Source: Occallatibacter savannae
GTDB taxonomy: Bacteria; Acidobacteriota; Terriglobia; Terriglobales; Acidobacteriaceae
DNA: 64,000 nucleotides
Direction of reading: 5' to 3'
Assembly: GCF_003131205.1 (NCBI RefSeq)
Contig: NZ_QFFY01000006.1
Span: 186,001-250,000 of the forward strand
Shown here: piece by piece, positions 17,362 to 61,178 of the stretch
Numbering within the stretch: position 1 is the first letter of the stretch
How the letters are laid out: every line of letters begins with the position of its first letter
Notes under the pieces: generated by a model
Told to the model about the DNA's origin: nothing
The model's input: only the letters and a program-made list of their open reading frames with translations
Database searches by the model: none
Program-made: the position numbers and the translations under genes

Positions 17362-17491
17362 CTATATCTCCCTCCAGTCCAGCCACTTAGATCGAATCCC
17401 AAGAAGAATGTACTGCTTTTGTACCGCCGGGCAAATTTCCGCCCGCGACCTGGTGCCGACTTTCGGTATTAGCAGTCAGAGGATTTCGAAC

Positions 17492-18703
17492 GTGGTTGTG
17501 ACTGTCTACGCGCGGCATTCGAGTACGTGCCCGCACCGCAACATGAAGAACGCCGGCCAATACCGGCGCTGTAAATGTCCCCTTTGGCTTCGCTGGGGCA
17601 AGAGGCACAAGCGCTCTGCGGGAACACGCTCCTGGGAGATTGCGATCAAGGGCGCGAGAAAGCTTGAAGAAGAGCTCGAGCGGAAGGCCCTCGGCCTCGA
17701 GCCACTGAAGCGGCCGGCTGCGACCACCATCGACGAGGCACTCGAGCTCTACTTTGTAGACCGAGCACAACGCGGCATCAAGGAATCCTCGAAAGCCAAG
17801 CGGCTCCTTGGACTGCTCAGGAACTATGCCCACGCCCGCAATGCGATCTACCTCGAGGACGTTTCAGCGCGGATGCTGACCGAGTGGCGGGCTACTTGGA
17901 CCTTCAACCGGCAATCAGGTGGTCCCGCGGTGGCCTGGTCGATCGTGAAGACATTCTTCCGCTGGGCACATTCGATCGACCTCGTTTCCTCCAATGTCAG
18001 TGCCAAGCTCCAGTCGCTCCCAATCGTCCGCACGCAAGTACAGCCGCTGACGAAGGATGAGATGGCACGACTGCTGGCGGCGACATCTCAGTGCGGCCTC
18101 AGCACCGAAGTCGAGCAGCGGGTTCGAACCTTCATCCTGCTCCAGCGGTGGTCAGGCCTTGCCTGCGTCGATGCGGCAACTCTGAAGAGGGAACTGCTCG
18201 GAGACGACGACAACCTCACGCAGGTGCACCGCACCAAGACCGACGCCGAGGTCTTCATCCCTTTGCCGCCCCCAGTAGCCGCGATGCTCCGTTCGCATCC
18301 GAATGACCACCCCGATTACTTCTTCTGGAATCCTGACCGGATGGCAAAGCCATCGTTGGTCTGCCAGTTCGGGGACTGGATGCGTCTGGTCTTCGACAAA
18401 GCTGGCGTCAAACATGGACAGCAGGAGATGCTGACGCATCGTTTCCGCCACACCTTTGCTGTCGAGCTGCTTCTGGCCGGAGTGCGGATTGAACAGGTCA
18501 GCAAGCTCCTCGGCCACAAGACTGTCCGGACCACCGAGCGCTACTATTCCGCTTGGGTGAAGGAGCGTCAGCGAAAGCTTGAGGCAGAGGTCAAGCAGGC
18601 CTGGTCAAAGATGGAGCTGCCGACCGCTTCCGGTGCAAGGATGAACGCAGCAGCTGCAAGCTCGAACCTTGCGGAAGCGGTGATCGACGGCATGATTCAG
18701 TAG
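17492..18703 (+). CDS. Tyrosine recombinase/phage-type integrase with an altered active site
   Basis: About 403 residues from a GTG at 17492 (GAGGAT eight bases upstream); an ATG at 17408 would add 28 unlikely residues. The N-terminal region has HSSTCPHRN and RRCKCPLWL, a Cys-rich arm typical of a subgroup seen in Acidobacteria. The catalytic domain has a likely beta-hairpin Lys (HRTKTDAEVF), H-R-F-R at residues 316-319 (HxxR), His 342 in LLGHKTV and Tyr 351 in the ERYYSAW segment. The first catalytic Arg, expected in GLRxxD, is Ala 224 (GLACVD). It lies next to the tRNA-Asn fragment, as expected of the element's own integrase, but may be inactive. Confidence 0.85.
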   Translation: MVVTVYARHSSTCPHRNMKNAGQYRRCKCPLWLRWGKRHKRSAGTRSWEIAIKGARKLEEELERKALGLEPLKRPAATTIDEALELYFVDRAQRGIKESSKAKRLLGLLRNYAHARNAIYLEDVSARMLTEWRATWTFNRQSGGPAVAWSIVKTFFRWAHSIDLVSSNVSAKLQSLPIVRTQVQPLTKDEMARLLAATSQCGLSTEVEQRVRTFILLQRWSGLACVDAATLKRELLGDDDNLTQVHRTKTDAEVFIPLPPPVAAMLRSHPNDHPDYFFWNPDRMAKPSLVCQFGDWMRLVFDKAGVKHGQQEMLTHRFRHTFAVELLLAGVRIEQVSKLLGHKTVRTTERYYSAWVKERQRKLEAEVKQAWSKMELPTASGARMNAAAASSNLAEAVIDGMIQ

Positions 18704-48302: not shown

Positions 48303-48824
48303 TCACCGCTCGTATTCTTCGTGCCAGCGGTGGGCCAACTCCTCGACTCGACGGAGGTCGCCGGAGATCACAGACTCGACGAGTAGTTTCAAGCGGCGAT
48401 ACTCGACCGATGGTATCTGTGTTTTGGTGCGCGGCTGCAGCGGCTTCTCTCCCAGCAGAAATCTCAGATCAAGATCAGTCGCGGTCTTGCGCTTCCACTT
48501 TCTTACCAACGCGGCGGACAACCCAAGAAGGATGCATTCCTCCTCATAGCTAGGGATTTGATCCGGAATACGTCTGCCCGGCTGAGTGGTAAGTCTCTTC
48601 ATTGCGGTCAATGCCGGAAGCAGAGCTCTACGCGTGGCCGCGTCGTACACGAAGGTCGTGTTCTGACAACCCCGTATGAGATAGAGCAATAAATCGTGCA
48701 GTCTCTCGTATCCCAGACTCTCGAAATCGGCTGTCGATATCTGCTCCAAGGCCCTACCTCCGTGCCCGGGCACGGAGGTGAGGTTCATCGGATTGGCGGG
48801 GACAATTGCATTTTTACGATTCAT
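48303..48824 (-). CDS. Hypothetical protein of the mobile element
   Basis: Up to 173 residues from an ATG at 48824 (AGGA five bases upstream). A much stronger site, GGAGGT six bases before an in-frame TTG at 48749, suggests a 148-residue product starting at LEQISTADFESLGYERL; I keep the longer frame but consider the TTG at least as likely. The protein is helical, with SYEEECILLGLSAALVRKWKRK and a C-terminal SVEYRRLKLLVESVISGDLRR. No family was recognised. It is the first of a run of small minus-strand genes of the element. Confidence 0.55.
   Translation of the reverse strand: MNRKNAIVPANPMNLTSVPGHGGRALEQISTADFESLGYERLHDLLLYLIRGCQNTTFVYDAATRRALLPALTAMKRLTTQPGRRIPDQIPSYEEECILLGLSAALVRKWKRKTATDLDLRFLLGEKPLQPRTKTQIPSVEYRRLKLLVESVISGDLRRVEELAHRWHEEYER
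48756..48779. repeat. Perfect 24-bp palindrome over a ribosome binding site
   Basis: ACCTCCGTGCCC followed directly by its exact reverse complement. The minus-strand GGAGGT in one arm is the ribosome binding site of a TTG start at 48749. As DNA it is a dimer-binding site; as RNA it would form a GC-rich hairpin hiding the Shine-Dalgarno sequence. Confidence 0.8.
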
Positions 48825-48921
48825 CAGATCCTAAATTCATTGAGGTGATCCGGTTCGAGACGTGCTCTCAATATCGCGCGCTGCGAGCCGTAGCTGCGGG
48901 CAGCTATGGGTAGATTCTCCG

Positions 48922-49296
48922 TTACTCAGCCCTGGGATCTCCTCTGAGATAGATATTTCGACGTGCTTCTTCCAGGAATTTGGGGGCTTCACTGCTGCTC
49001 CACTGATCCAAGCAAACTGTGAAGACAAGGAGGGGCTTTGGATTCGAAGGAGTGGCAGAAAGCCGCAATAGCTCTGTTTTCCCAAAGAGAATGGTTTCGT
49101 CTCTTTCATCTTGAACGACGACGGGGACACCATTCGCATAGGCTTCGATGGCTCGGATCATCGGTTCCTTTAATTCGTCCGGTAGTCGAACACAGTTGCG
49201 CCGGATCTGGCTAATCGCGAGCTCCATATGGACCGCCCTGTGATTCCTGGGATCTGGAATATCAACTGCACTGACAATTAGCTCGATTTTGCGCAT
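48922..49296 (-). CDS. Hypothetical protein of the mobile element
   Basis: 124 residues starting MRKIELIVSAVDIPDPRNH, with AGGAT about nine bases before the ATG. The sequence looks like a compact alpha/beta domain (LPDELKEPMIRAIEAYANG, then VVVQDERDETILFG). No family is recognised. It shares direction with the neighbouring small genes. Confidence 0.5.
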   Translation of the reverse strand: MRKIELIVSAVDIPDPRNHRAVHMELAISQIRRNCVRLPDELKEPMIRAIEAYANGVPVVVQDERDETILFGKTELLRLSATPSNPKPLLVFTVCLDQWSSSEAPKFLEEARRNIYLRGDPRAE

Positions 49297-49464
49297 TCGG
49301 ACAATCCTACCTTCACAGCCTCTTCACTTTGTTGCAGACGACAACGTCTTCCAATCGCAGCCTGTCTGGGATACCAGCATTCAGGCTCTTTACAGTAATG
49401 TGGCCTTCGATTGAAATGCTGCAGTTGCCTTGGCCCGTAGACTCCCAGCATCGGCACTAAGCTA

Positions 49465-49767
49465 CTATGTACCGGAAGTCAGCTTTACGGCGTCGGGTGG
49501 CATTCCGTTCTGGGCGAGGTATCGCTGGAGCCGGCGCTCTACAATCAGCCCAAGTTGGGCCCCAATGACCGCCTGACAGCCGGAACAAAAGTCACTCTGT
49601 TTGGCCGAGTCCCTCGTGTGCAACATAGATGTGCACTGCTCGCACAAGAGGCTTGCAGCGAGGGCCGCGTTCAAGGCCTCATTGATCGTGTGCGCATCAA
49701 ATCTAAGTGTTGCCTTCAGTAATTCAGGGAGGCATGCTCCCCCGTCACCTTTCCTTTCGACTCCCAT
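49465..49767 (-). CDS. Small CxxC protein of the mobile element
   Basis: 100 residues with AAGGAGA six bases before the ATG. Two cysteine pairs, CEQC near residue 42 and CSGC near residue 61, suggest a treble-clef or zinc-ribbon fold; helices flank it. No family can be named. A palindrome TTGATCG-AC-CGATCAA lies 58 bases upstream of the start. Confidence 0.6.
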   Translation of the reverse strand: MGVERKGDGGACLPELLKATLRFDAHTINEALNAALAASLLCEQCTSMLHTRDSAKQSDFCSGCQAVIGAQLGLIVERRLQRYLAQNGMPPDAVKLTSGT

Positions 49768-49824
49768 GATCTGTCTCCTTCCCAGCGTCTCCGCTTAGTC
49801 ATAACGTTTTGCAATCTCTGACAA

Positions 49825-49840
49825 TTGATCGACCGATCAA
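49825..49840. promoter_or_regulatory. Candidate operator, TTGATCG palindrome
   Basis: TTGATCG-AC-CGATCAA is a perfect 7-bp inverted repeat with a two-base centre, in the gap upstream of the CxxC protein gene. The size and position fit a dimeric repressor site. Confidence 0.5.
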
Positions 49841-49966
49841 ATGCGCAGTCCGGCGATTACCAGGGCGGCGGCAATGCGTCCCGAACGGTAGTGACCCGTG
49901 CTCTGCAGGTACTCAACGTCCGGCAGCTAACAGCCGTTGCACTCGCGCAGTATGGCTTTCAGAGAA

Positions 49967-50236
49967 TCAGTAACCTCTGGACGCCTGCCTTTTCAGCAGG
50001 TTGTCCACTGCGCGAGCCCAGTGGTTGTAATGAGCGACCGTGCAAGAATTCAGAGCTTGCTTAGCGGCATCGCGACTGATGCTGTGGCGCATGACGAAGG
50101 TGTTAGTAAGCAAGTCGAGAATTCCGTACGAGCCCGGGCGGTACTTGCTCGTCCGTCGCATGCAGCGGACCAGGAAGCGCTTTGCTTCGAGACCGTTATC
50201 GAGATCGATAGTGACGTCTTTCAACATGATTTCCAT
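49967..50236 (-). CDS. Hypothetical protein of the mobile element
   Basis: 89 residues with an ideal ribosome binding site (AAAGGAGG five to six bases before the ATG). It starts MEIMLKDVTIDLDNGLEAKRF and is basic, with no recognised motif. The strong translation signal supports a real, expressed gene. Confidence 0.6.
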   Translation of the reverse strand: MEIMLKDVTIDLDNGLEAKRFLVRCMRRTSKYRPGSYGILDLLTNTFVMRHSISRDAAKQALNSCTVAHYNHWARAVDNLLKRQASRGY

Positions 50237-50280
50237 CTTGTTCCTCCTTTGCGTTTTGGGGCTGGTTTTGACAGCCAGGT

Positions 50281-50484
50281 TTATCTGATCGCGGTGAGCC
50301 GCTTGTTGCGGAGAAGATCTCTAGCATCTCGCTGCGCGCATGACCGCCGTTGTGATCTCGCTCCCAAGAAGCACATCTGAATCAGGGTTGCGTCTTCTGC
50401 AATGTTGAGGTGTACGGTGGCATGAGCGTAGGATTCGGTCGCTAATGTGATCGGGCCATCGTTCTCTTCCATGATTGTCAGCAT
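50281..50484 (-). CDS. Small hypothetical protein of the mobile element
   Basis: 67 residues from an ATG at 50484 with AAGGAG seven bases upstream; the frame is open to 50556 but overlaps the M41 peptidase gene. The N-terminal part (MLTIMEENDGPITLATESY) is acidic, the C-terminal part very basic with SQRRSCAQRDARD. No family was recognised. Confidence 0.5.
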   Translation of the reverse strand: MLTIMEENDGPITLATESYAHATVHLNIAEDATLIQMCFLGARSQRRSCAQRDARDLLRNKRLTAIR

Positions 50485-50512
50485 TGGTATCTCCTTCATC
50501 CGGTTATCGCCA

Positions 50513-51082
50513 TCATGCTGCCCATTTTGGGGAACAAAGATCGGCGACCTCACCATACTCGACGGTGCCTTTCTTCAAAAGAAGATTCACCAAGCGTGTG
50601 TGCCAAGCCTTCTCTAACAGGAGCCGATCCCAGGCGTCAGCTAGCACTCGGTTGATCCACTTGTCGACAGCGCCCGGAGTGGAGAACTTTCTGACTTCCT
50701 CTCTGGCGGTGTACCAATCGTCATAGGAGCCTCCAAACAAGTCTCTACCTGTAAACGTTCCGCTGCTCTTCCAGTCGATGCGTTCCCCAGCCAGACCCGC
50801 CATGGAAAGACACGCCCAATCCCAATCATTTGCGTAGTTCACAGTTCCTATGTTGTGGCGGAGCCCACCGAGAGCCGTACGAATCACCGGCGCCTCGGAG
50901 CCGATCATGTGCATCGGATAGATGGGCAGGTAAGGAACGATCGTTACGTCCCTGAACTCAACGTCAATCATCAGTGCGAAGACGGCATGACCAGCTTCAT
51001 GCTTCGCACGATCTAGGAGTGCACGCTTTTCGGCCGTCTTAGTTCTGGTGCGTTGGTCCTGCCGCCGTCTCCCTCTATCCAT
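50513..51082 (-). CDS. Stand-alone M41 (FtsH-type) metallopeptidase domain
   Basis: 189 residues with no AAA+ ATPase domain and no membrane helix. The zinc motif HEAGH is at residues 28-32 (AKHEAGHAVFALM). A downstream GLAGERIDW corresponds to the conserved FtsH GRxAEE segment, and Asp 121 in GGSYDDWYTAREEV fits the third zinc ligand (FtsH GxSNDLxxAT). FtsH needs its ATPase ring to feed substrate; a free domain must recognise substrate in another way or bind a partner. Free M41 domains are known from mobile elements but their targets are not. Start at 51082 with upstream AGGGAGGATT. Confidence 0.8.
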   Translation of the reverse strand: MDRGRRRQDQRTRTKTAEKRALLDRAKHEAGHAVFALMIDVEFRDVTIVPYLPIYPMHMIGSEAPVIRTALGGLRHNIGTVNYANDWDWACLSMAGLAGERIDWKSSGTFTGRDLFGGSYDDWYTAREEVRKFSTPGAVDKWINRVLADAWDRLLLEKAWHTRLVNLLLKKGTVEYGEVADLCSPKWAA

Positions 51083-51174
51083 TAGAATCCTCCCTGTGGT
51101 AACTTCAATCTAAGAGGAGTCGCTCTTTCCGACCTCTGATTCTCTATTGGCCTATGGCCCCACTTTAAGATGTG

Positions 51175-51258
51175 AGCCCGGCTGGGCCGGAGAATCCAGC
51201 CGGGCTGTTCGCCAAGCACGCAGTGCTTGGCATGAGCGGGTGAAGTCAGTCCCGCTCA
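51175..51258. repeat. Three consecutive perfect inverted repeats (hairpin array)
   Basis: Hairpin 1: AGCCCGGCTGG/CCAGCCGGGCT (51175-51185, 51196-51206), 11 bp. Hairpin 2: GCCAAGCAC/GTGCTTGGC (51211-51219, 51223-51231), 9 bp with a 3-base loop. Hairpin 3: TGAGCGGG/CCCGCTCA (51233-51240, 51251-51258), 8 bp. All arms are perfect and the hairpins are nearly end to end. The array lies in the gap between the divergent M41 gene and the gene at 51629. No T tract follows on the plus strand, so it is not a simple terminator. Confidence 0.85.
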
Positions 51259-51628
51259 AACTTGCGGTGGACCATTCGCTCCCCTCAAATCTGTTTGGAT
51301 CTTGCTCTCAAGTCTTCAGTCATTTCAATGACAGCAAACACACGTCATTGACCGACCTTTCTGTCCTTGACTTCTTTGAGCTTCTGAGTTATTGGGCGCA
51401 CGAGCCCGGACTTTCCAGCTGCAATCAACTCGACGTGCACGGCGCAATTCCTCAATGGGTGGTGCGCCTAGATGTAGACTTGTGTCCAGTTCGCTTCGGA
51501 AAACTGACCTCACTCGGGCATGCGAAGTTAGTCCAAAGGGCTGCTGGCCGTCGAAATGTTTGGGCTGTACGTACGAGGTTTCAGAAGGGGCTGCATAAGA
51601 CGTTTGCCGGGGCTGGAAAAGGGAGCTT
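51259..51628. other. Leader region of the gene at 51629
   Basis: The 161-codon plus-strand frame at 51147-51632 covers this stretch and the hairpins, and its stop overlaps the next ATG, but its composition is odd and it would encode the hairpin array. I treat the stretch as non-coding, holding a promoter for the gene at 51629. Confidence 0.35.
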
Positions 51629-52435
51629 ATGAGCCAAGACAAGGCACGGATTGGTCCAAAGAGCGGATCTCAGGAAGAGCAGATTCGGACTAGCATTCTC
51701 GACAGTTATAAGCCCTCAGATGGGTGTCCTCCCTTGAAAGATCATTGGGGCGGTTATAGCCTGGCTGCGATTCCCTGGTTACCCGCATTTGCGGAGCAGG
51801 TAGCAGGTGATAAAAATCGAAGAGACGCGTGGAAGTCCCTGACTGAGAGGTGCGACTCTTCATATTTGATTGATCTCGTCTATGTGTTTACTCGGAAGAG
51901 TGGTGTCCTGGCTGATGATGATCAGGAAGATGCGAGTGCAATCAAAGAGGCTCTTGATCATGTTCTGAAGCGCTATGAAGATCTTGAGAAAGAGATTCGC
52001 AAAGTTGTGCACAATGACGATTTTCGATCTGAAGTGCTGAATCGGGAGCTTGAATTCCAACGTCAATTCAGGTTCTTGGATGCATCGTGTAAGCACATGA
52101 GGAAGCTGCGAGACTATTTTGCTCGTCGAGGGTTACGCAAACGCGACCCTCGGGACTGGTACTTGATGCTGCTTTGCAAGCACACCATGGAAGCTACAGG
52201 CTCCATTCACGAAGAAGAGATAGTGACTCTGATCGAAGCTGCCTATGATGCTCATCAACACACACGGAGAGCGGTAACGACAGAGGTTGTTGTGAGACAG
52301 CTCCGGAGGGCGGTTAAGCATTACGGAGCTGAAATCTTCGATGGTCGTGTGTATTTTAGATTCCAGGAGATAATTCCCTCAGAGCTCGACCCACCCAGGG
52401 AATCGGAGATCGATGACTCAGATTTTCCCTTTTAG
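51629..52435 (+). CDS. Hypothetical protein of the mobile element
   Basis: 268 residues with GGGAG four to five bases before the ATG. It is highly charged and largely helical (EALDHVLKRYEDLEKEIRKVV, then FLDASCKHMRKLRDYFARRGL). The C-terminus is acidic (ESEIDDSDFPF). No signal peptide or membrane helix. No family recognised. It is the first gene of the rightward part of the element, downstream of the hairpin array. Confidence 0.6.
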   Translation: MSQDKARIGPKSGSQEEQIRTSILDSYKPSDGCPPLKDHWGGYSLAAIPWLPAFAEQVAGDKNRRDAWKSLTERCDSSYLIDLVYVFTRKSGVLADDDQEDASAIKEALDHVLKRYEDLEKEIRKVVHNDDFRSEVLNRELEFQRQFRFLDASCKHMRKLRDYFARRGLRKRDPRDWYLMLLCKHTMEATGSIHEEEIVTLIEAAYDAHQHTRRAVTTEVVVRQLRRAVKHYGAEIFDGRVYFRFQEIIPSELDPPRESEIDDSDFPF

Positions 52436-53226
52436 ATTCTCGCGCCGTCTCTGCAGCAGCAGATTTCCTATATCGGTTCTATTGCCTTCTCGTAAGGCTG
52501 GCTAACCTAAAGCCGGCTACGCACTGTAAGGGGTTTGTTGTCCAGCTAGACCTCGAAGGAACCGGGCCCTCTGATGCAGATCGACGAAGAGTGCTCACTA
52601 GTTGCGGTTTGATCCAAATTCATTGCGAGCAAAGTGATCCGTTGCTTTGGGGGGGCGCCCTCTGGTGTTGCGACTATGACTTGCTTCAGCTTAGATATCA
52701 AGTTTCCGAAACTGGAAGTCTGGATCGGAGCTCTCCGCGCACCACCAATGAGTGAGCTGCGAAGGTACTGTGGCATGCATCTGCTGCAGTCTCATTTATA
52801 AACGAGCACGCGGATTCAAGCTATGCGCCAACAAGACCAGAGGGTTCTCACAAATATTAAGCTTCTCTTTTGTTCTTGCCTTTGTTTTTGTATTTATATT
52901 GCAGGGTGAGTGCATAGCCTAAATTGCTTCGAGCCATGCGCTTAGAGGTTTTCCCTAATTTAATGGGAAATCTTCACTTTTCCCTAAAAAACTGGCATTT
53001 TGGGACTCACGTTCTCGACGACGTTCCCAGCCTAAAGCAGGTGACGATCACCGCAGACGGCCATTTCTCAGATCCAGCGGGTCTGCCCTGCAAGCATCCT
53101 GACCTGCTTCTTCATAAGCTAAATCGAAAGTCTAAACATTTCCCGAATATCAATTCCTCTGAATGTGGGAGCGTTGAGCACCTCAGCAAACTGGGGTTCC
53201 AAGAAGCCATCCACCGAAGAGGTCTC
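52436..53226. other. Intergenic region upstream of the HTH-partner-polymerase gene group
   Basis: AT-richer than the rest of the element, especially 52840-52920. The frame open from 52924 continues into the HTH gene but has no motif before its likely start at 53227. A promoter for the following genes is probably here; I cannot place it precisely. Confidence 0.4.
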
Positions 53227-53424
53227 ATGACTGAAGAACCAGAAGTAAATGAAACACACGCCCTGATTGCGGAATACATCCGCAATCATCCTGACGACAG
53301 TTTCCAAACCATCGCCTCGCGACTCGGAGTGGCACTGTCCACCGTCAGTCGCATCGCGCGTACGAACGGTCTGTCACGCCACAATAGCATCACTATCAAC
53401 CCTAACTTACTAGAGGAAAAATAA
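53227..53424 (+). CDS. Small helix-turn-helix protein
   Basis: 65 residues from an ATG at 53227 with GAGGT three to four bases upstream. The core IAEYIRNHPDDSFQTIASRLGVALSTVSRIARTNG is a clear HTH of the resolvase/Mor type, with DSFQTIASRLG as the first helix pair and STVSRIARTNGL as recognition helix. It ends directly at the next start (TAAATG), so the two proteins are made together. Likely a regulator or origin-binding protein of the element. A longer frame from 52924 adds 101 residues of unclear reality. Confidence 0.65.
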   Translation: MTEEPEVNETHALIAEYIRNHPDDSFQTIASRLGVALSTVSRIARTNGLSRHNSITINPNLLEEK

Positions 53425-54237
53425 ATGAATATACACGATGATCTACTCTACTCTGAAGTCGAACTCGAAGATACAATCTCAGCCTCGATACCCCTAGCGA
53501 CCGAGAGCTATGCTCCCGACTCCGCAATCGTAAGCCAGTTTGGTGCACAGGAGTCGGAACCGAAAGTCACTGGCACAAACGCGACCTCAAAGATCGCTAG
53601 TGCTCCCGGTATTCCGACTCTGCCTGCCACGGGTGCCGTGGGCGCGTTCGATGCTCCTCAGATATCGACTCAGATAGCGACTGAGGACGTCTTCTCGGCT
53701 GCGAACTTCTCGCCTTCGGATTCGTCGTCGCGCTCCATTGATGACCTGGCAATCGAACTCCGGACTCCGTCCGATGAAGAATTCGTCAGGGTTTCAACAA
53801 ACCCGCAACACACCCTGACTGCACCACTGCTGGTCGTTAGCCGCGAAGACGGTTACGGTAAGAGCTACCACCTGCTCACACCCATGATGCGTGGCTGGGC
53901 GAAGAACCAGCCGAGTCTTCATAAGTTCGTGAAGGAGATGCGACTCTATCTTTTCGCGAACCAGGACGGCGAGTATGGTCTCTGGCCGATTCGCGATTCT
54001 TTCGATAATTGGTCAGTCAGCGATATGCAAGTGGTCGAAACGGCCAAGAAGATGTGGACACGCCGTTATAATGCGGGCAAAGTTCGCAAGGCGCATACGT
54101 CGACCTCGATCGAGTTCCAGATCGAGTGGCCGAACAAGTCGATGTTCGGCGCGGATGGCATTCTCGCCCAAGTATTCGGTGACGCGTTTGTAATTTCGTC
54201 TTCCGACAATCCCACGATCAAGCGTCTGCTCCGGTAG
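53425..54237 (+). CDS. Conserved unknown partner protein of the PolA-type mobile element
   Basis: 270 residues. The first 120 are Ser/Thr/Ala-rich and probably disordered. The C-terminal 150 form a compact domain: EEFVRVSTNPQHTLTAPLL, SYHLLTPMM, MRLYLFANQDGEYGLWPIRD, then AKKMWTRRYN and the end DAFVISSSDNPTIKRLLR. I recognise this pattern from genes that sit next to PolA-like polymerases in integrative elements; no function is known to me. It starts immediately after the HTH gene stop. A DNA- or polymerase-associated role is inferred from its place. Confidence 0.65.
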   Translation: MNIHDDLLYSEVELEDTISASIPLATESYAPDSAIVSQFGAQESEPKVTGTNATSKIASAPGIPTLPATGAVGAFDAPQISTQIATEDVFSAANFSPSDSSSRSIDDLAIELRTPSDEEFVRVSTNPQHTLTAPLLVVSREDGYGKSYHLLTPMMRGWAKNQPSLHKFVKEMRLYLFANQDGEYGLWPIRDSFDNWSVSDMQVVETAKKMWTRRYNAGKVRKAHTSTSIEFQIEWPNKSMFGADGILAQVFGDAFVISSSDNPTIKRLLR

Positions 54238-54298
54238 ATCGTTCACGTCGTGGGCAAGCGATCTACTCATCCAACTCAACAACCTCGGAGCAGACATC

Positions 54299-56203
54299 CT
54301 GCACATTTGGATCGCGGACTCCGAATTCTACGGCGCCGATGGGAACTGTCCAGTTCCCGTCTGTGTCGTGCTTCATAACCCTATAACAAACCAGACCATT
54401 CATGTTTGGGTTCAACCCGGTGAAAGGCCACATTGCCCAATCCCACTCGACAACTCGACCCTGTTCATTGCATATGCGGCTCAGGCCGAGTTGATGAGCT
54501 TTCTGCAGTTGGGCTGGCAGATGCCTCGTCGTATTCTTGATCTGTTTATTGAATATCGGCACCTGAACAACGAAGCCTACCGGCTACAGGAAATGAAATC
54601 GAAGAAGGCATTCGGTCTCCTTGCCGCAGCAAGCCGTTACGGGATTCACCTCGAGTCGGAGGACTACAAGCAGGAGATGCGTGACCTGATTCTTCGCGCA
54701 CACCCGTACACTGCCGAGGAGCAGCAACGGATTCTCCACTACTGCGAAATGGATGTTCGTGAGACTGCAGCACTCGCTGAAGCGATGTGGCGTGAAATTC
54801 CTGACCTGCGCGCAGCGGTCTTCCGCGGTTCGAGCGCACGGGGCTTTTCGTGGGCACGGATGATCGGTATCCCGTTGGATGTTGATTTGCTGGAGCGCTT
54901 GAATCGCCGATGGTCGGGCGTAAGTGCTGCGCTTACTAACCAAGTCAAACAAGATTTCCCAATCTTCCATGAAGGATCAGCGGATATAGCGCCATCACTC
55001 TGGAAGGAATTCCTCGATCGACTTGGTTGGATCGAGAAGTGGCCACACACCCGAGGCAGTAAAAAGAAGGGTGGTGGCGCGAAGCGGCTGCCGAAACGAG
55101 ATGAGAAGACACTTCGCGCAATGGCAAACGTGCATCCTGAGTTGGCCTCACTGCATGCATACCTTTGCATGCGCAACAGCACGAAGCTTGGTTTGAAGTT
55201 TCCGGTTGGATCTGATGGTCGGAGCAGAGTTCATTTCTGGGATTACGGCACGGTGACCTCACGCTGCTCGCCGAGTTCGTCGCAGTTCGTAATTCAAGGT
55301 GGGTCGCCGGCTTTCAGGCACCTCGTGAAGCCCCGCGAGAATGAAGTTCTGATTCAGATTGACTGGGCATCGCAGGAAATTTGGATAGCCGCATTCTTGT
55401 CAGGCGACCGCATTATGCAAGAGATGTTATCCAAAGGCGATCCTTATGTTGCCTTTGGACATCTCGCGAACCTGCTCCCAGCCGATGCGACCAAAAAACC
55501 TGAAAACTCTCCGTATTGGGCGACTGACCCAAATATAGCAAAGCAGCACACCGTGATTCGCAATCGTCTGAAGGCGGTCGCGCTTGGGGTCCTCTACGGG
55601 AAAACTGCATATACGATTGCCGCTGAAGAGGGTATGACTCTCGACGAGGCTAGGGCATTGCTTCGGATTCACCGTCGCCTCTTCAAGCGCTTCTGGAATT
55701 GGATCACGGGGGTCACGAGCGAGGCTCTCGCCACCCGCCGCATCTCAACACGCTTCGGGTGGACGCAGCAGCTGCTCTCAAGGAAAGAGCGAGAGGCTCA
55801 TTTAAACGAAGAGGGACGAGTGAAAAGTATAACGAATTCGCTCCAAAATTTCCCAATGCAGGCTCACGGCGCGGAAATGCTTAGGCTAGCCATGACCTAC
55901 GCAGCTGATCTGAAGGTGCCGGTTTGTGCCCCACTTCACGACGCAATCTTTGCGGTTGCGCCCGTAGAGGAGGAACAGCAGGTGACCGATTCTTTGTTGG
56001 AAGCAATGAGTCGTGCCTCCATGGATGTGATCGGCTGTTTGATTCCCACTGAGGTGGAGGTTATCCGCTTCCCCAACCGCTTTGTGCCCACGAAAAAGCC
56101 CGAGGCTATCGAGACGTGGAACGCAATGCTTAAAGCGCTTGAGCGCTTAGAAAGTGAAGAGGCTATAGATGAAAGATCCGTTTTCGAAGAACGAAGTGCT
56201 TGA
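54299..56203 (+). CDS. Family-A DNA polymerase with 3'-5' exonuclease domain, mobile-element type
   Basis: About 634 residues. The exonuclease part has ADSEFY (Exo I, DxE), AYAAQAEL (Exo II position) and HYCEMDVRE (Exo III, YxxxD). The polymerase part has motif A IQIDWASQEIWIAAF, motif B RNRLKAVALGVLYGK and motif C LHDAIF, so all catalytic carboxylates are present. There is no 5'-3' exonuclease domain. Translation in frame upstream of the GTG at 54368 is needed to include Exo I, yet there is no ATG, GTG or TTG there; a CTG at 54299 with GGAG eight bases upstream would give MHIWIADSEFYG. The frame closes at a TAA near 54187. It probably replicates or repairs the element. Confidence 0.85.
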   Translation: MHIWIADSEFYGADGNCPVPVCVVLHNPITNQTIHVWVQPGERPHCPIPLDNSTLFIAYAAQAELMSFLQLGWQMPRRILDLFIEYRHLNNEAYRLQEMKSKKAFGLLAAASRYGIHLESEDYKQEMRDLILRAHPYTAEEQQRILHYCEMDVRETAALAEAMWREIPDLRAAVFRGSSARGFSWARMIGIPLDVDLLERLNRRWSGVSAALTNQVKQDFPIFHEGSADIAPSLWKEFLDRLGWIEKWPHTRGSKKKGGGAKRLPKRDEKTLRAMANVHPELASLHAYLCMRNSTKLGLKFPVGSDGRSRVHFWDYGTVTSRCSPSSSQFVIQGGSPAFRHLVKPRENEVLIQIDWASQEIWIAAFLSGDRIMQEMLSKGDPYVAFGHLANLLPADATKKPENSPYWATDPNIAKQHTVIRNRLKAVALGVLYGKTAYTIAAEEGMTLDEARALLRIHRRLFKRFWNWITGVTSEALATRRISTRFGWTQQLLSRKEREAHLNEEGRVKSITNSLQNFPMQAHGAEMLRLAMTYAADLKVPVCAPLHDAIFAVAPVEEEQQVTDSLLEAMSRASMDVIGCLIPTEVEVIRFPNRFVPTKKPEAIETWNAMLKALERLESEEAIDERSVFEERSA

Positions 56204-56507
56204 GCCCGAACTCGAGCAAATTATCCATCGGTTGGCACGTGGCGACTATGACTTCGATCGCCCTCTGATGAGAGAGCCAGATGGGACGGTGAGGCTCCTC
56301 GATGCCTTCAGTTTTCCAATTGGGGCTTTGATCGAGGTTAAGAATTGGTTGAGAGGCAGATACATCGGCAATGGCTACCTGCTTGTCGACTTTGAATATC
56401 TGCTGATAGAGCGGGGCACCTTTCCATTTGAATGGATACCGATCCGTAAGCGGCGTGTCCGTCTCAAGCCTCACTGGCACGCTTCGGAAGTTGGAAGTGG
56501 CTCGTAG
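56169..56507 (+). CDS. Hypothetical protein overlapping the polymerase gene
   Basis: 112 residues with GAAGAGG five to six bases before the ATG, overlapping the end of the polymerase gene by 35 bases in another frame. It begins MKDPFSKNEVLEPELEQI and has GALIEVKNWLRGRYIGNG. No family recognised. The overlap implies translational coupling to the polymerase. Confidence 0.55.
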   Translation: MKDPFSKNEVLEPELEQIIHRLARGDYDFDRPLMREPDGTVRLLDAFSFPIGALIEVKNWLRGRYIGNGYLLVDFEYLLIERGTFPFEWIPIRKRRVRLKPHWHASEVGSGS

Positions 56508-56630
56508 CCCGCAGCTGAATCTAGATAACTGCGTAGCGCTCTGCAGAAAACAAAGTTCCACGCTACCCAAACCACAACTGGAGGGCTTAATGCCCTAACC
56601 ATTGCAATTAAATTACGAAAGGTTTAGAGA

Positions 56631-57266
56631 ATGGAATATGAAATGACAGACAGCTACCGCGCTTTTCTACGTATGATGTGCCACTTCTGGGCGCCCGGAC
56701 AAGATGAATATCTGGCGGGTGAGATCATCCAACAGTGGTCGATTCGCCAGGGCTACCGGCGCGAGATGGCCACTCTTCAGGCGGAGATCATGAAGCGCGA
56801 AGCAGTGCTCGGTGATCTTCTCCATCGCAAGAAGCAGCAGCTTTGCAAACTTGGTCGCAACGGCCGCTGGAGTGCTTGGCTCGAACAGAGCAAGATCCCT
56901 CGCTCGACTGCGGACAGGCTCGTAATCGACCACGCAGAATTTTTCGGGTTGAAGGAAGAGCTGAACCATCGCTCTGAGTCGGATCCGCACGATGGAACCA
57001 TTTCGCAAGCCGCTCGTCGCACCACTGATCGACTGGGACACACTCTTCGCTCTCCACGCAGCCGCCTGACGTTTCTGAAGTGCCTTGGTGATCTTTTAGG
57101 GCTCGAGGTAGAGAATGGCGGCGATGAATCGGTGAAAATGTCGTTCACAGTACTTCCGGGGGAAACGTCCGAGGTCGTTCCTCCCATCATCGAAATGCAA
57201 GAAGATGGGTCAGTGAGGCCGATCAATTACGAATTGCGAGATGATGGCGAAGAGTCGGTGCTCTAG
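56631..57266 (+). CDS. DNA-interacting hypothetical protein, DUF3102-like
   Basis: 211 residues with AAAGG about seven bases before the ATG. The middle holds LGRNGRWSAWLEQSKIPRSTADRLV, which resembles the GxWxxWLexxxxxSxrTAxryi segment of phage and plasmid DUF3102-type proteins, often linked to DNA or ParB-like functions. The N-terminal third is helical with a Glu/Lys-rich coil. Same direction as the polymerase, about 120 bases after the previous gene. Confidence 0.6.
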   Translation: MEYEMTDSYRAFLRMMCHFWAPGQDEYLAGEIIQQWSIRQGYRREMATLQAEIMKREAVLGDLLHRKKQQLCKLGRNGRWSAWLEQSKIPRSTADRLVIDHAEFFGLKEELNHRSESDPHDGTISQAARRTTDRLGHTLRSPRSRLTFLKCLGDLLGLEVENGGDESVKMSFTVLPGETSEVVPPIIEMQEDGSVRPINYELRDDGEESVL

Positions 57267-57283
57267 TCAAGTGGACAGGTGTC

Positions 57284-57311
57284 GCGTCGAGCTATTCGTT
57301 ACGCTCGACGC
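57284..57311. terminator. Perfect 9-bp hairpin after the DUF3102-like gene
   Basis: GCGTCGAGC/GCTCGACGC (57284-57292, 57303-57311) with a ten-base loop, 17 bases past the stop at 57266. No T tract follows, so it may stabilise a 3' end or act with Rho rather than alone. Confidence 0.45.
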
Positions 57312-57379
57312 GTCGCCTCGCGTTCTGTGTGGTGCGCACATCAACAGGCGAAGGCATCGGCTGGGTGCCGAAGCAGAGA

Positions 57380-57568
57380 CTAAGGTACTATCTTTCCACC
57401 TAAAATTGTTCTGGTCTCGACACGACCCTGGTTGTCACGCGTGGTGATGACCTGCACGACAGGTCTACCTGCATAGTAAGTAGTGTTCGAGTCAACGGTG
57501 TTGCCTTGGTTGTCGCACAGATGTTGGAGTTGCCCTACGAGTTGGCCCTGGTTATCCCTCACGTCCAT
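57380..57568 (-). CDS. Small protein with DNQG repeats
   Basis: 62 residues with GGAGGGG about eight bases before the ATG. The motif RDNQGQLVGQ, then CDNQGNTVD and RDNQGRVETR recurs three times at uneven spacing, which suggests three short beta-hairpin turns. No known family. It lies 15 bases downstream of the phosphatase gene in the same direction and is probably co-transcribed with it. Confidence 0.6.
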   Translation of the reverse strand: MDVRDNQGQLVGQLQHLCDNQGNTVDSNTTYYAGRPVVQVITTRDNQGRVETRTILGGKIVP

Positions 57569-57582
57569 TGCGTTTTCCCCTC

Positions 57583-58026
57583 CTAGTTGTGAGTGTTCAG
57601 CTCTGATGCAATGCTCTCAACCAGAACGGCCGACGGATTTACCGCCGGACGAAGCTGCTCAAGAAAGTCTAAAGCTGATTTGAAGGTCATGAAGCCCGTT
57701 CGATCGAGAAACGCTGCGACCACGGCGGGAGAGCGCGATATGCCAGCGCTGCAGTGGACCAGCAACGGCCCTTCCCGCAAACTGTCTTCGATGGCGCTTA
57801 GAATCGCGTTGAGAAAAGAGGTCGCGATAGGACGGGCATCACGTACCGGCAGGTGGATATATCGGACTGAATTTGCTGATTGATGTACTGGCTCCTCGCA
57901 AAGCGTAAGCACCGTTCGGATGCCGTGCACATTTTCCATCGCTAAACTCTCAGCATCATTCGAATCCCCCAGGTAGAGGCGTTCCGAGATTTTGGTCAGC
58001 GATGTAGCGTGACGTTTGGGTCTCAC
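57583..58026 (-). CDS. Dual-specificity protein phosphatase
   Basis: 147 residues from a GTG at 58026; the frame is open to 58194 but the extra part has no motif. The body is a compact DSP fold: ISERLYLGDSNDAES, VHGIRTVLTLCEE, IHLPVRDARPIATSF, then the active-site loop VHCSAGISRSPAVVAAFL (HCxxGxxR, with the catalytic Cys and Arg) and the general-acid Asp in PVRDARP. It removes phosphate from Tyr and Ser/Thr residues or from other phosphate groups. DSPs are rare on bacterial mobile elements, so a role against a host kinase is possible (inference). Start: the GTG overlaps the stop of a weak upstream frame. Confidence 0.75.
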   Translation of the reverse strand: MRPKRHATSLTKISERLYLGDSNDAESLAMENVHGIRTVLTLCEEPVHQSANSVRYIHLPVRDARPIATSFLNAILSAIEDSLREGPLLVHCSAGISRSPAVVAAFLDRTGFMTFKSALDFLEQLRPAVNPSAVLVESIASELNTHN

Positions 58027-58354
58027 ACCTCTGGTATACCGATGCGAATGCAAGATTGAGGAAGTTTTATTGAAAAGACTCCTACTTTTTCGAATCGAGC
58101 CCGGTATACCGTGAGTAGGAAAGAAAACATTCGCTTTCCCAGGCGGCTCAAGACAATTAGTTGATCTAGTTTGATTCGCGCGAACGCTGCGCAAGCTTCC
58201 AGTTGTTCGGCTAGATTCAGGTAGCGAGCCCGCTCTTCGGGGATTCTGTCGAAGCTCAATGTCTGACTGATTTCCCGTCGGGCAGACCCCGCTGAAAATC
58301 GCAGTATTTTCGGCAAAAGTGTGTGTCTGCAGTGTGCGAGAAAGGAGACCCTAC

Positions 58355-58555
58355 GTGGCGAGGAAGCTTGGCCAGATCATCCCTCGGGGCACAAATCGCT
58401 GGCTTGTCCGCGTCTCGCTCGGCCGCGATCAAGCTACCGGCCGGCGCCGCTACCTCAATCGCACTGTCACAGGTCCGCAGCGGAGGGCGCAGCAGTTCCT
58501 ATCGACCGAGCTCCTCGCACGCTCCGAGACAGGGAATTGGTGGGTGGCGAGATGA
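58355..58555 (+). CDS. N-terminal arm domain of a split tyrosine integrase
   Basis: 66 residues from a GTG with AAGGAG about eight bases upstream. The sequence VARKLGQIIPRGTNRWLVRV, then GRRRYLNRTVTG is the Tn916/lambda-type AP2-like arm-binding domain that normally begins an integrase. The frame ends with TGA at 58553-58555, inside the ATG of the catalytic ORF (ATGA). In normal family members the same segment continues straight into MTLNEYLDRWL, so the gene is either frameshifted or deliberately split. Confidence 0.75.
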   Translation: MARKLGQIIPRGTNRWLVRVSLGRDQATGRRRYLNRTVTGPQRRAQQFLSTELLARSETGNWWVAR

Positions 58556-59535
58556 CGCTGAATGAGTACCTCGATCGTTGGCTCCATCTTGCCGCCCGAC
58601 CGAGACTGCGTGCCAAGAGCTATGCGGATTATGCGGCGCTTCTTGCCCGGTACATCCGGCCAAGCCTCGGAGGTCACACGCTACAGGATCTAAAACCACT
58701 CGAGATCCAGGCGACGTATCAGAGCATGCTCGATCGCAAGCTTTCGCCCCGCACCATCCAGTACACGCACTCCGTCCTTCATGCCGCTCTCGAACAGGCG
58801 GTTCGATGGGGCCAGCTCGCACAGAATCCTGCCAACGGGCTTGCCCTTCCAAAAATCGAGCGAAAGATTCCCCGGGTTCTGACGGTCGATGAGGCAAGGC
58901 GCTTCCTCAGGGCGGCGCTAGAGACCCGCTATGGTGCGGTGTTTGCTCTAGCGCTTACTTCCGGTCTTCGTCCGAGCGAACTTGTTGCGCTTCGATATGC
59001 CGACATCGACTGGCTCCGGCAAACGGTCACGATTGAAAGGGCGCTTGTGAAGGGAAAGGGATGGCAATTCCAGGGAACCAAACGGCCGGCCAGTCGCCGC
59101 CAAGTGAAGTTGCACAACTGGGTCTTGCAACTCCTTCGGGCGAAGCGCCAGGAAACTGTCCCAACCGTTTCCGGTGCTGACCCAGGATCCTGCCAGATTT
59201 TCCAAACGCTCTCTGGCCAGCCGCTCAATAGTGATTACCTGGGCAGAGAGCTCAAGCGAATACTCGCGCAAGCAGGCTTGCCTCGGATCCGCCTGTACGA
59301 CCTTCGTCACACCGCAGCTAGTCTGGCTCTTGCAGCCCACGTGCCGGCGAAAGTGATTTCGGAGCAGTTGGGGCACACGACCGTGGCGTTCACTCTGGAT
59401 CGTTATGCGCACCTGCTGCCGCATCTGCAAACAGAAGCTGCTGAGCGGGTAGAGGCTCTGCTCGCGATTGCTCCCGGTCATCGGAAACCGCCTGTTTCGA
59501 TTCATCCTCATTCCGTAGTTTCCGTCACAGCGTAG
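58552..59535 (+). CDS. Core and catalytic domains of a tyrosine integrase (split gene)
   Basis: 327 residues. The SAM-like core domain starts MTLNEYLDRWLHLAARPRL. The catalytic domain has Arg in TSGLRPSELVALRY, a likely Lys in GTKRPASRR, the box LYDLRHTAASLAL with Tyr at the first HxxR position as in many phage integrases, His in EQLGHTTVAF and the nucleophile Tyr in DRYAHLLP. All key residues are there. It starts with an ATG that overlaps the stop of the arm-domain ORF. Without the arm domain it should still cut core sites but may not form higher-order complexes. Confidence 0.85.
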   Translation: MTLNEYLDRWLHLAARPRLRAKSYADYAALLARYIRPSLGGHTLQDLKPLEIQATYQSMLDRKLSPRTIQYTHSVLHAALEQAVRWGQLAQNPANGLALPKIERKIPRVLTVDEARRFLRAALETRYGAVFALALTSGLRPSELVALRYADIDWLRQTVTIERALVKGKGWQFQGTKRPASRRQVKLHNWVLQLLRAKRQETVPTVSGADPGSCQIFQTLSGQPLNSDYLGRELKRILAQAGLPRIRLYDLRHTAASLALAAHVPAKVISEQLGHTTVAFTLDRYAHLLPHLQTEAAERVEALLAIAPGHRKPPVSIHPHSVVSVTA

Positions 59536-59583
59536 CTAATCGTCGTTTTATAAGCTCATCTGTTCCCACGAAAGGACGTCTTC

Positions 59584-60852
59584 ATGGTCGAACCAGTCAT
59601 CGTGTGTCCCTCTTGTCACACCGAGATCAAGCTCACTGAATCGCTGGCCGCACCCGTGGTCGCGGCGATCAAGCAAGAGTACGAAAAGAAACTTGCTGAG
59701 AAAGACACCGAAGTATCCGCACGTGAAGCGGTGTTGCAGAAGCAGGAGCAGGACGTAGCCAAGGCACGAGCACAGGTCGATGCGGCGATCGAGCAGGGTA
59801 TCCGGAGAGAGCGCCAGACGATCGCAGCCGAAGAAGGGAAGAGAGCGCGCTTGCTCGTCTCCGATGAGCTCGAGGCGAAGTCGCGCGGTCTCGCAGATCT
59901 TGAACAGGTCATCGCCGCAAAGGACGAGAAACTGGCCGAGGCTCAAAAGGCGCAGGCGGAGCTGCTGCGGAAGGAACGCGAGCTGGACGATGCCAGGCGG
60001 GAACTAGATCTCACCGTGGAACAACGTGTACAGACTTCACTCGGCAGCGTCCGCGAGAAGGCCAGGCGAGACGTCGAAGCGGAGCTGAACCTTAAGGTGA
60101 CGGAACGAGAGGAAACGATTGCCGGTCTCCAACGCCAAATCGAGATCCTTAAACAGAAAGCCGAGCAGGGCTCGCAGCAGCTGCAGGGCGAAGTGCAGGA
60201 GCTTGAGCTCGAGTGCCTGCTTGCTCAGAAGTTTCCCCTGGATCAGATCGATCCGGTACCGAAAGGCCAGTTTGGCGGTGACATCCTTCAGCACGTGCAC
60301 AGCTCTTCCGGCCAGATCTGTGGATCAATGCTCTGGGAATCGAAGAGGACAAGGAACTGGAGTGATGGCTGGCTGGCGAAACTGCGAAACGACCAAAGAT
60401 CTGCGAAGGCAGATATAGCCATCCTGGTCTCGAGAGCCCTACCCAAGGAGGTGGAATCGTTTGATCTGGTCGATGGGGTTTGGGTCGTCGATCCACGTTG
60501 TGCGATTCCAGTCGCCATCGCGCTGCGCCGGTCGTTGATCGATATCGCCAATGCGCGTCAGGCGAACGAAGGCAGACAGACCAAAATGGAAGTGATGTAC
60601 TCCTACCTGACCGGTCCACGTTTTCGGATGCATGTGCAATCGATCGTCGAGAAATTCACCGCAATGGAGGAAGATCTTGCCAGCGAGAGAAGATCGATGG
60701 CTCGCATATGGGCAAAGCGCGAGTGCCAAATACAAGGAGCAATCGAATCCACTGCAATGCTCTATGGCGATCTGCAGGGCATCGCAGGCAGGAGTCTCGA
60801 GGAGATTGAGGGACTTGAGTTGCCACTGCTCTCAGAAGGAGCAGCGCAATGA
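59584..60852 (+). CDS. DUF2130 family protein, nuclease-like
   Basis: 422 residues with AAAGGACG a few bases before the ATG. The N-terminus has a CPSC pair, residues about 30-215 are a long coiled coil rich in Glu/Lys/Ala, and the C-terminal domain carries GQFGGDILQHV, CGSMLWESKRTRNWSDGWLAK and SAKADIAILVS. The GD, WESKR and later elements match the D-ExK arrangement of the PD-(D/E)XK fold described for DUF2130. Members are thought to be DNA-related. It follows the integrase by 48 bases and overlaps the next ATG. Confidence 0.85.
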   Translation: MVEPVIVCPSCHTEIKLTESLAAPVVAAIKQEYEKKLAEKDTEVSAREAVLQKQEQDVAKARAQVDAAIEQGIRRERQTIAAEEGKRARLLVSDELEAKSRGLADLEQVIAAKDEKLAEAQKAQAELLRKERELDDARRELDLTVEQRVQTSLGSVREKARRDVEAELNLKVTEREETIAGLQRQIEILKQKAEQGSQQLQGEVQELELECLLAQKFPLDQIDPVPKGQFGGDILQHVHSSSGQICGSMLWESKRTRNWSDGWLAKLRNDQRSAKADIAILVSRALPKEVESFDLVDGVWVVDPRCAIPVAIALRRSLIDIANARQANEGRQTKMEVMYSYLTGPRFRMHVQSIVEKFTAMEEDLASERRSMARIWAKRECQIQGAIESTAMLYGDLQGIAGRSLEEIEGLELPLLSEGAAQ

Positions 60853-61178
60853 CGCCTGATATCGATGTTTCTTCAGCCCCCAATATGTATGCCATCGAGT
60901 TCGAGTTCGAGAGAAAGCTCGGTGTGTCGCTAATTCTTTCCTCGGCGTGTGCTTTGGCTGCAAGGATGAAGGCGTTACGGCTGTTTCCAGAGTACAAGCG
61001 GTTTGCGACTGCAGTTCATCTCCACAGTGTGGAATACGTAGAAATCGATTGGCAGACAGGTCGCATTATCGTGGTGAAGCAGCGGGACAGGGAGGTTATC
61101 TCCGGACTTCGTTCTGGCGGAGCCTCCGACGACGACCTTCACAACGATTGGCGCATTGAGGAATCAGGTGGGGTATAG
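60849..61178 (+). CDS. Hypothetical protein coupled to the DUF2130 gene
   Basis: 109 residues whose ATG overlaps the DUF2130 stop (ATGA). It starts with MYAIEFEFERKLGVSLILSS about residue 13 and ends acidic. No known motif. The overlap indicates it is translated together with the DUF2130 protein and may act with it. Confidence 0.55.
   Translation: MTPDIDVSSAPNMYAIEFEFERKLGVSLILSSACALAARMKALRLFPEYKRFATAVHLHSVEYVEIDWQTGRIIVVKQRDREVISGLRSGGASDDDLHNDWRIEESGGV

Follow-up and report, generated by a model that had tools for sequence, protein, structure and literature searches.

What kind of mobile DNA carries a family-A DNA polymerase of its own, and could it copy itself with it? The question is raised by a region of the 6.28-Mb genome of Occallatibacter savannae, lying in a stretch of 64,000 nucleotides that was analysed as a whole (G000:C6:186001-250000; hereafter the window, to which positions refer). 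On its + strand, between 53.2 and 56.5 kb, a small helix-turn-helix (HTH) gene, a gene for a 270-aa protein (the partner), a family-A polymerase frame and a 112-aa gene form a tight cluster. Beyond the polymerase cluster follow, in order, a 211-aa 'DUF3102-like' gene, a phosphatase gene on the opposite strand, a tyrosine integrase gene and a DUF2130 gene. A preliminary description of the window had proposed an integrative element between 48303 and 61178 in which a PolA stands where pipolins carry a PolB, and which may copy itself. With moderate confidence, we read the region as one member, probably decayed, of a family of small integrative islands in which an OB-fold protein resembling single-stranded DNA-binding protein (SSB) and, immediately after it, a proofreading PolA-type polymerase make up the replication module.

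A family of PolA-type polymerases with leucine at position 762

The polymerase gene is a 669-codon open frame (54194..56203, + strand) encoding a 3'-5' exonuclease and a polymerase. Its PolA-like character was borne out: the frame matched DNA_pol_A in Pfam (E 3.7e-17), the same search showed no 5'-nuclease domain, and the family residue was present at 13 of 13 columns checked, namely 12 catalytic positions of what we take to be motifs Exo I-III, A, B and C, plus the leucine at the equivalent of E. coli position 762. The nearest solved structures by sequence are those of Pol I.

A first genome scan with a single protein as query returned no relative. When GTDB genomes were scanned with an alignment of 24 polymerases, 187 relatives were obtained, from which the best 80 loci were kept; viral contigs contributed 18 loci. 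Intact-looking members occur in cultured hosts, among them Polynucleobacter cosmopolitanus (L063), Limnohabitans Rim11 (L075) and Dechloromonas H13 (L037). Loci were fetched by polymerase similarity alone, and a few are near-copies. Profile counts given below refer to a set of 102 loci, which omits pieces of the own genome (L001, L002, L104-L107) and later additions (L108-L111). The family is rare and patchy in the phylum of the window, being found in 2 of 396, 3 of 300, 4 of 397 and 3 of 399 genomes (overlapping draws, thresholds of E 1e-20 to 1e-30, own genome always included), and a search of E. coli genomes detected no DNA relatives.

In a tree of 120 rows, made by a quick method and containing long branches, 114 relatives, including 15 viral-contig rows, were split off by a branch with SH-aLRT support of 99; on its other side lay host Pol I, T7, three further phage polymerases and the record MT838505.1. 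The tree took 17 of 56 database proteins, together with those loci in which the best polymerase segment was free of stops and no shorter than 1,400 bases. Leucine occupies the 762-equivalent position in all 114 aligned polymerases, a site filled by Phe in host Pol I and by Tyr in T7. Each of the remaining 12 catalytic columns is retained in between 108 and all 114 sequences, the exceptions being gaps or single deviations.

MT838505.1 is a 5.2-kb record named 'Bacteriophage sp.', with the best E-value among the phage matches listed. It was rejected as a phage relative and is probably a cellular fragment: by inspection, its longest frame reads as a Pol I with a 5'-nuclease region, beside a tsaD-like gene. 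The record (L114) thus encodes an apparently complete Pol I and is probably a misnamed bacterial fragment.

A dedicated partner with a predicted OB fold

Directly upstream of the polymerase gene lies that of the partner (53425..54237, + strand), whose open reading frame (ORF) proved to be real. The protein has a disordered N-terminus and an ordered C-terminal domain (residues ~110-270), which in two structural models is predicted to adopt an OB fold, closest to T4-type SSB at a weak Z score. The partner looks like an SSB-like binder of single-stranded DNA. By sequence, it gave one chance match only in the PDB. No PDB sequence match linked it to T4 gp32/RB69 SSB, PRD1 P12 or PrgE, for which structural Z scores were likewise weak. 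In a Foldseek search of viral models, the best hit was an uncharacterised Listeria phage protein (E 0.003).

With profiles made from clustered ORFs and a six-frame search, 93 of 102 loci were found to have the partner immediately before the polymerase and in the same orientation; at least 600 bases of sequence precede the polymerase in 96 of the 102. Loci lacking a partner are either cut at the edge of the contig or locus or belong to four viral contigs (L094, L097, L098 and L101). Among protein-database entries (56 polymerases and 59 partners), 11 polymerase-partner pairs appear to share a contig, as judged from equal lengths; one such contig (10,594 bases) would, on the same grounds, also encode a DUF3102-like protein.

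The HTH gene (53227..53424, + strand; 65 aa counted from an internal ATG) ends directly against the partner gene, in agreement with the coupled pair of the preliminary description. Its frame gave weak HTH matches under the cut-off (MarR_2, E 0.0024). It occupies the slot of AlpA-type regulators in relatives: an AlpA-profile match lies near the polymerase in 28 of 102 loci, some of these matches being weak, and Pfam identified Phage_AlpA in L011. A small protein is also conserved downstream of the polymerase, matching profile C3 in 79 and profile C5 in 16 of the 102 loci, in overlapping sets. Another small protein near the polymerase, with an HGGxSTGPxT-like motif (profile C6), was seen in 10 of 102 loci, with some weak matches, for example at L021 12215-12601.

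Islands bounded by att sites, with packaging genes in some

Tyrosine integrases were detected in 65 of 102 loci and serine recombinases in 12, some of each being weak matches. Among the 28 loci having 5 kb on both sides of the polymerase, 23 hold a tyrosine or serine recombinase within that distance. Because the own genome has 23 tyrosine recombinase matches in 6.28 Mb, chance accounts for little of this proximity. A tRNA or tmRNA gene lies no more than 600 bases from the integrase in 15 of 39 loci, as compared with 6% under random placement in the same loci. At a Mycobacterium asiaticum locus with the polymerase pair and a serine recombinase, we observed queuosine-precursor genes (L015 13521-16046; FolE2/QueD/QueE/QueC-like, by inspection), which are possible DNA-modification cargo.

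Three relatives are bounded by att repeats at tRNA genes. L017 is a 12.7-kb unit delimited by a 52-bp exact repeat of the end of tRNA-Glu; L018 is a 10.2-kb unit at tRNA-SeC (84 of 86 bases), in which the polymerase frame is interrupted; and L084 is a 9.6-kb unit at tRNA-Cys (48 of 49 bases). A scripted att search gave candidate pairs in 24 loci, the output covering loci with a seed match, and L017 and L084 were accepted from it. Candidates in L082 (24 of 28 bases, tRNA-Ser-like, beside a second integrase), L070 (21 of 24, close to both contig ends) and L075 (23 of 25, near two large genes) were not counted, and no terminal repeats marking circular contigs were reported. Thus the proposal of an integrative element around a PolA and a dedicated partner is supported for the family, and the search of genome collections that had been suggested as its check found the two genes adjacent and close to recombinases.

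Some members carry packaging genes. The L084 unit contains an integrase, the partner, the polymerase, a GpA-type large terminase (TerL) and a Phage_capsid protein, along with a Nu1/DUF1441-like small terminase candidate below the cut-off; ORF inspection showed no portal. Genes for a large terminase, a portal and a capsid protease are present in L086, which is not att-bounded here. In L063, from Polynucleobacter cosmopolitanus, tRNA-Lys is followed by the integrase, an uncharacterised gene and one of 84 aa; next come the partner, the polymerase and C3, then a small terminase (phrog_83, E 4.4e-13) and, by inspection, host-like efflux genes. Judged by gene order, this island spans ~5.3 kb, although a search for an att repeat in it found none. 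A phrog_83 small terminase was also placed in L024. Since some relatives carry a small terminase and others a large terminase with capsid genes, part of the family looks, from its gene content, like phage satellites.

The same genes bear on a different reading, in which the region is the leftover of a temperate phage, an ordinary prophage remnant, and its polymerase belongs to the phage replication genes of the PolA3 kind. The presence of TerL, portal and capsid genes in L084 and L086 fits it. So does the account of PolA3 in a 2026 survey, polymerases without a 5' nuclease and with intact proofreading that are scattered, lie in prophage regions and have close phage homologues (PMC12926913), and Leu762 PolA enzymes have been linked to temperate phages (PMC6302109). 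By contrast, two polymerase queries gave no match over 80% of the query in 50,697 phage and 72,556 plasmid records, so an origin visible in cultured phages was rejected; the L061 partner was likewise unmatched in the phage records. A profile for GpA-type TerL, the one type that it covers, was found in 8 of 102 loci, all 8 being viral contigs, and in 0 of 80 genome-contig loci. Among 145 neighbour ORFs from 30 loci, the leading phage families (best 25 of 85 PHROG families) were integrases and the small terminase, with three matches, two of which were placed; these best 25 included neither a large terminase nor a portal family, and one ORF matched a family of minor tail proteins. In addition, the three att-bounded relatives span just 9.6-12.7 kb. 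We therefore consider a prophage remnant unlikely.

A putative slot for exchangeable replication modules

The 'DUF3102-like' gene (56631..57266, + strand; 211 aa) links the window to other islands. Its earlier name held up in part: the protein belongs to a real conserved family (27 proteins listed, its own one included), but it gave no DUF3102 match in Pfam up to E 0.1. Homologues with 49-60% identity are found in integrase-containing regions of two more islands of the own genome and of one island in another genome of the family. Near these homologues, the three sister islands encode other replication proteins, matching D5_N (E 1.4e-31), DUF3987 (E 2.8e-5, below the cut-off) and Prim-Pol (E 1.1e-21). 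In two of the three, the replication protein lies upstream of the DUF3102-like homologue, on the same strand and separated from it by a small frame, which is also how the polymerase is placed in the window; in the third, the two genes are divergent. Because sister islands pair the DUF3102-like gene with D5-, DUF3987- or Prim-Pol-type proteins, the polymerase seems, by gene arrangement, to occupy a slot for exchangeable replication modules.

The own-genome sister islands, L122 (G000:C2:669001-689000) and L123 (G000:C1:1438501-1458500), contain integrases and D5- or DUF3987-type proteins. In L122, the integrase adjoins tRNA-Ser, and a Mom-like gene is present as well.

This arrangement is pertinent to whether the polymerase pair is a replicase at all or is repair or defence cargo of genomic islands. 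Defence-type genes do adjoin the window element and its relatives, among whose neighbour ORFs AbiE and type I methyltransferase, for instance, were each matched once, and a slow, accurate Leu762 polymerase could serve repair. However, the pair sits comparably to the replication proteins of the three sister islands, it is retained in islands that by gene order look as small as about 5 kb (L063 and L021), and the partner has no PADLOC match; we regard the cargo explanation as quite improbable. An integrative element of the mobilisable or conjugative kind, in which the polymerase is an accessory, would likewise give integrase-bounded, tRNA-targeted islands with varied cargo, but it is very improbable, as no relaxase or conjugation family was found for the 145 neighbour ORFs (best 25 of 85 PHROG and 25 of 103 Pfam families) or in the window ORFs scanned.

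Boundaries and condition of the window copy

For the window itself, the proposed ends at 48303 and 61178 are unsupported, because a scan of the window found no tRNA and direct repeats in 47-64 kb were not convincing (six families reported, 14-16 nt each). The integrase-bounded unit with att repeats that can be defined in L017, L018 and L084 was accordingly not recovered here. No empty site could be drawn either, because the left host gene is absent, at E up to 1e-50, from all 79 other genomes searched in the genus.

On the right, the DUF2130 gene is followed by a PDDEXK-like frame (below the cut-off), PDC-M48-type genes, CapH/CapP-like genes and an E1-E2-JAB gene. These defence-type genes run to about 69.6 kb, past the end of the window, where a MacB/FtsX-type permease follows, and they may either be part of the element or form a separate defence island next to it. 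In L104 3399-9563 (window coordinates 63399-69563) we observed PDC-M48A/B, a CapH/CapP-like pair, a gene giving weak MBL-type matches and an E1-E2-JAB protein.

Two genes of the element look damaged. The polymerase frame has no in-frame ATG, GTG or TTG ahead of Exo I; the polymerases of its closest relatives start at a Met ~25 residues ahead of Exo I, and metagenomic relatives at 76-84% identity have a normal start. A database protein from the same contig (P0001) begins at residue 66 of the query, 90% of which it covers. The integrase, with SAM-like and catalytic domains (58552..59535, + strand; Phage_integrase E 3.3e-21, Phage_int_SAM_3 E 6.9e-9), has a recognisable core that begins at 58552; the ORF as listed from a GTG matched Phage_integrase at E 5.7e-21 and has an out-of-frame N-terminus. 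A peptide resembling an arm domain sits in a different frame (58319..58555, + strand). From its letters, we tentatively take it as the N-terminal arm-binding segment of the integrase; it resembles other integrases in the set weakly and locally, and searches of Pfam, PDB, plasmids and phages did not confirm it. The integrase is thus possibly split, and the window copy is probably decayed and may be dead, sequencing error or an unusual start being the alternatives. Because the polymerase start and the integrase look damaged, self-replication of this copy is doubtful. For the family, the earlier suggestion of a possibly self-copying element is plausible.

Other genes in the window

Around this core, several further genes were examined. 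The 112-aa gene (56169..56507, + strand) overlaps the end of the polymerase gene; its product has no PHROG family and one chance-level Pfam match. On the - strand, a dual-specificity phosphatase (57583..58194; DSPc, E 2.2e-18) is probably cargo. The DUF2130 protein (59584..60852, + strand; E 4.5e-75) could be right-hand cargo or part of the neighbouring defence island, and a 109-aa protein without a Pfam family is coupled to it (60849..61178, + strand). The phosphatase, the integrase and DUF2130 are thus present as the preliminary description had listed them. Located 5' of the replication operon, an ORF for a 268-aa protein (51629..52435, + strand) has no Pfam family up to E 0.1; from its position, we infer that it is a member of the element.

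Farther left, a small gene at 50513-51082 (- strand) gave a weak Peptidase_M41-like match under the cut-off (E 0.0039). A second tyrosine-recombinase-like ORF of 431 aa (17408-18703, + strand) lies ~35 kb to the left of the element, with a PF00589 match above the cut-off at G000:C6:204047-204550. Pfam and PHROG revealed no packaging genes in the window ORFs scanned, and no large terminase, head or tail genes were found in Pfam among 20 window ORFs between 45.5 and 64 kb.

A model for the islands and their counterparts

In our model of the intact relatives, a tyrosine or sometimes a serine recombinase would insert and excise the island, with tRNA and tmRNA genes as frequent targets. The AlpA/HTH regulator just upstream would probably switch the operon on, the SSB-like partner would probably coat single strands and bring the polymerase to the excised DNA, and the polymerase would copy that DNA with proofreading, with unwinding and priming presumably left to the host or a helper. 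Members with a small terminase, or with a large terminase and capsid genes, would probably be transferred as satellites inside phage particles; the window copy is among the others, which carry defence-type or uncharacterised cargo.

A stronger version of this model can be put forward only tentatively. It holds that the islands are distinct self-copying integrative elements, the PolA counterpart of pipolins, with a two-protein replisome (an OB-fold SSB-like protein and a proofreading Leu762 PolA) and without helicase or primase of their own. They could be as small as about 5 kb, would occur in several bacterial phyla and would exchange their module with primase-helicase modules in the slot of satellite-like islands.

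Pipolins are integrative elements carrying their own PolB (PMC7385651), and the likeness lies in an integrative element having its own DNA polymerase. Membership was rejected, as the window polymerase is a DNA_pol_A and not a piPolB; the comparison stands only in the sense that the islands may work like pipolins. They also differ by the SSB-like partner, and there is no sign of a primer-independent polymerase here. An att-bounded island of the pipolin type at a tRNA gene is seen in L017, L018 and L084, and none was found for the window.

With phage satellites (PICI, PICMI, cf-PICI, VEIME and tycheposons) the islands share an integrase, an AlpA/HTH gene, a replication gene, sometimes a small terminase, tRNA/tmRNA targeting and a size of about 5-13 kb. 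VEIME and tycheposons, which are marked by encapsidation in virions and by characteristic integrases, may carry a PolA too. PICI-type satellites are induced and packaged by a helper phage. Of the PICI-type features, the window has an integrase and a weakly matched HTH, and no small terminase or other packaging-hijack gene was recognised among its ORFs scanned. The cf-PICI have terminase and capsid genes of their own and no tail genes. L084, with TerL and Phage_capsid inside its 49-bp att pair, may be cf-PICI-like, and neither gene was seen in the window ORFs scanned.

The replication gene of PICMI is the primase-like Prim, unlike the PolA and SSB-like module here (PMC10803314). An int-AlpA layout is also seen in tmRNA islands that a jumbo phage mobilises, and the word 'polymerase' is absent from the main text of that account (PMC12595487); the available portions of two tycheposon and VEIME accounts (PMC10872708, PMC10187409) mention no such polymerase pair.

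As for the enzyme, the polymerase family may be PolA3 or part of it, matched by description. Both lack the 5' nuclease, have an intact proofreading site, are patchily distributed and occur in a viral or mobile context, but PolA3 is described as prophage genes with close phage homologues, and the accessible text mentions neither the partner nor a satellite context (PMC12926913). Virioplankton PolA with leucine at position 762, the residue shared here, has been tied to a slower, more accurate enzyme; its neighbours in the available text are non-ring helicases (RecB- and UvrD-like), whereas no helicase was recognised in the present module (PMC6302109). In phages, polymerases of the PolA, PolB and PolC types have been swapped in situ (PMC11348598). 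A literature search, mostly outside subscription journals and without bioRxiv, found no description of PolA-SSB islands.

Implications

The family is widespread but little described. The preliminary description had foreseen neither its satellite-like members, nor the SSB-like fold predicted for the partner, nor sister islands in the window's own genome that use different replication proteins. To our knowledge, phage satellites and small islands rely on the host or a helper for DNA polymerase and supply no more than an initiator or primase themselves. If our reading is true, about one third of a ~5-kb island would be spent on its own proofreading polymerase, which would call for a rethinking of how such islands escape from host and helper control. 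The polymerase pair would then serve as a marker for such islands in many phyla, and biochemists would gain a compact polymerase-SSB pair to work with. The swapping of replication modules can be tested directly in the sister islands of one genome.

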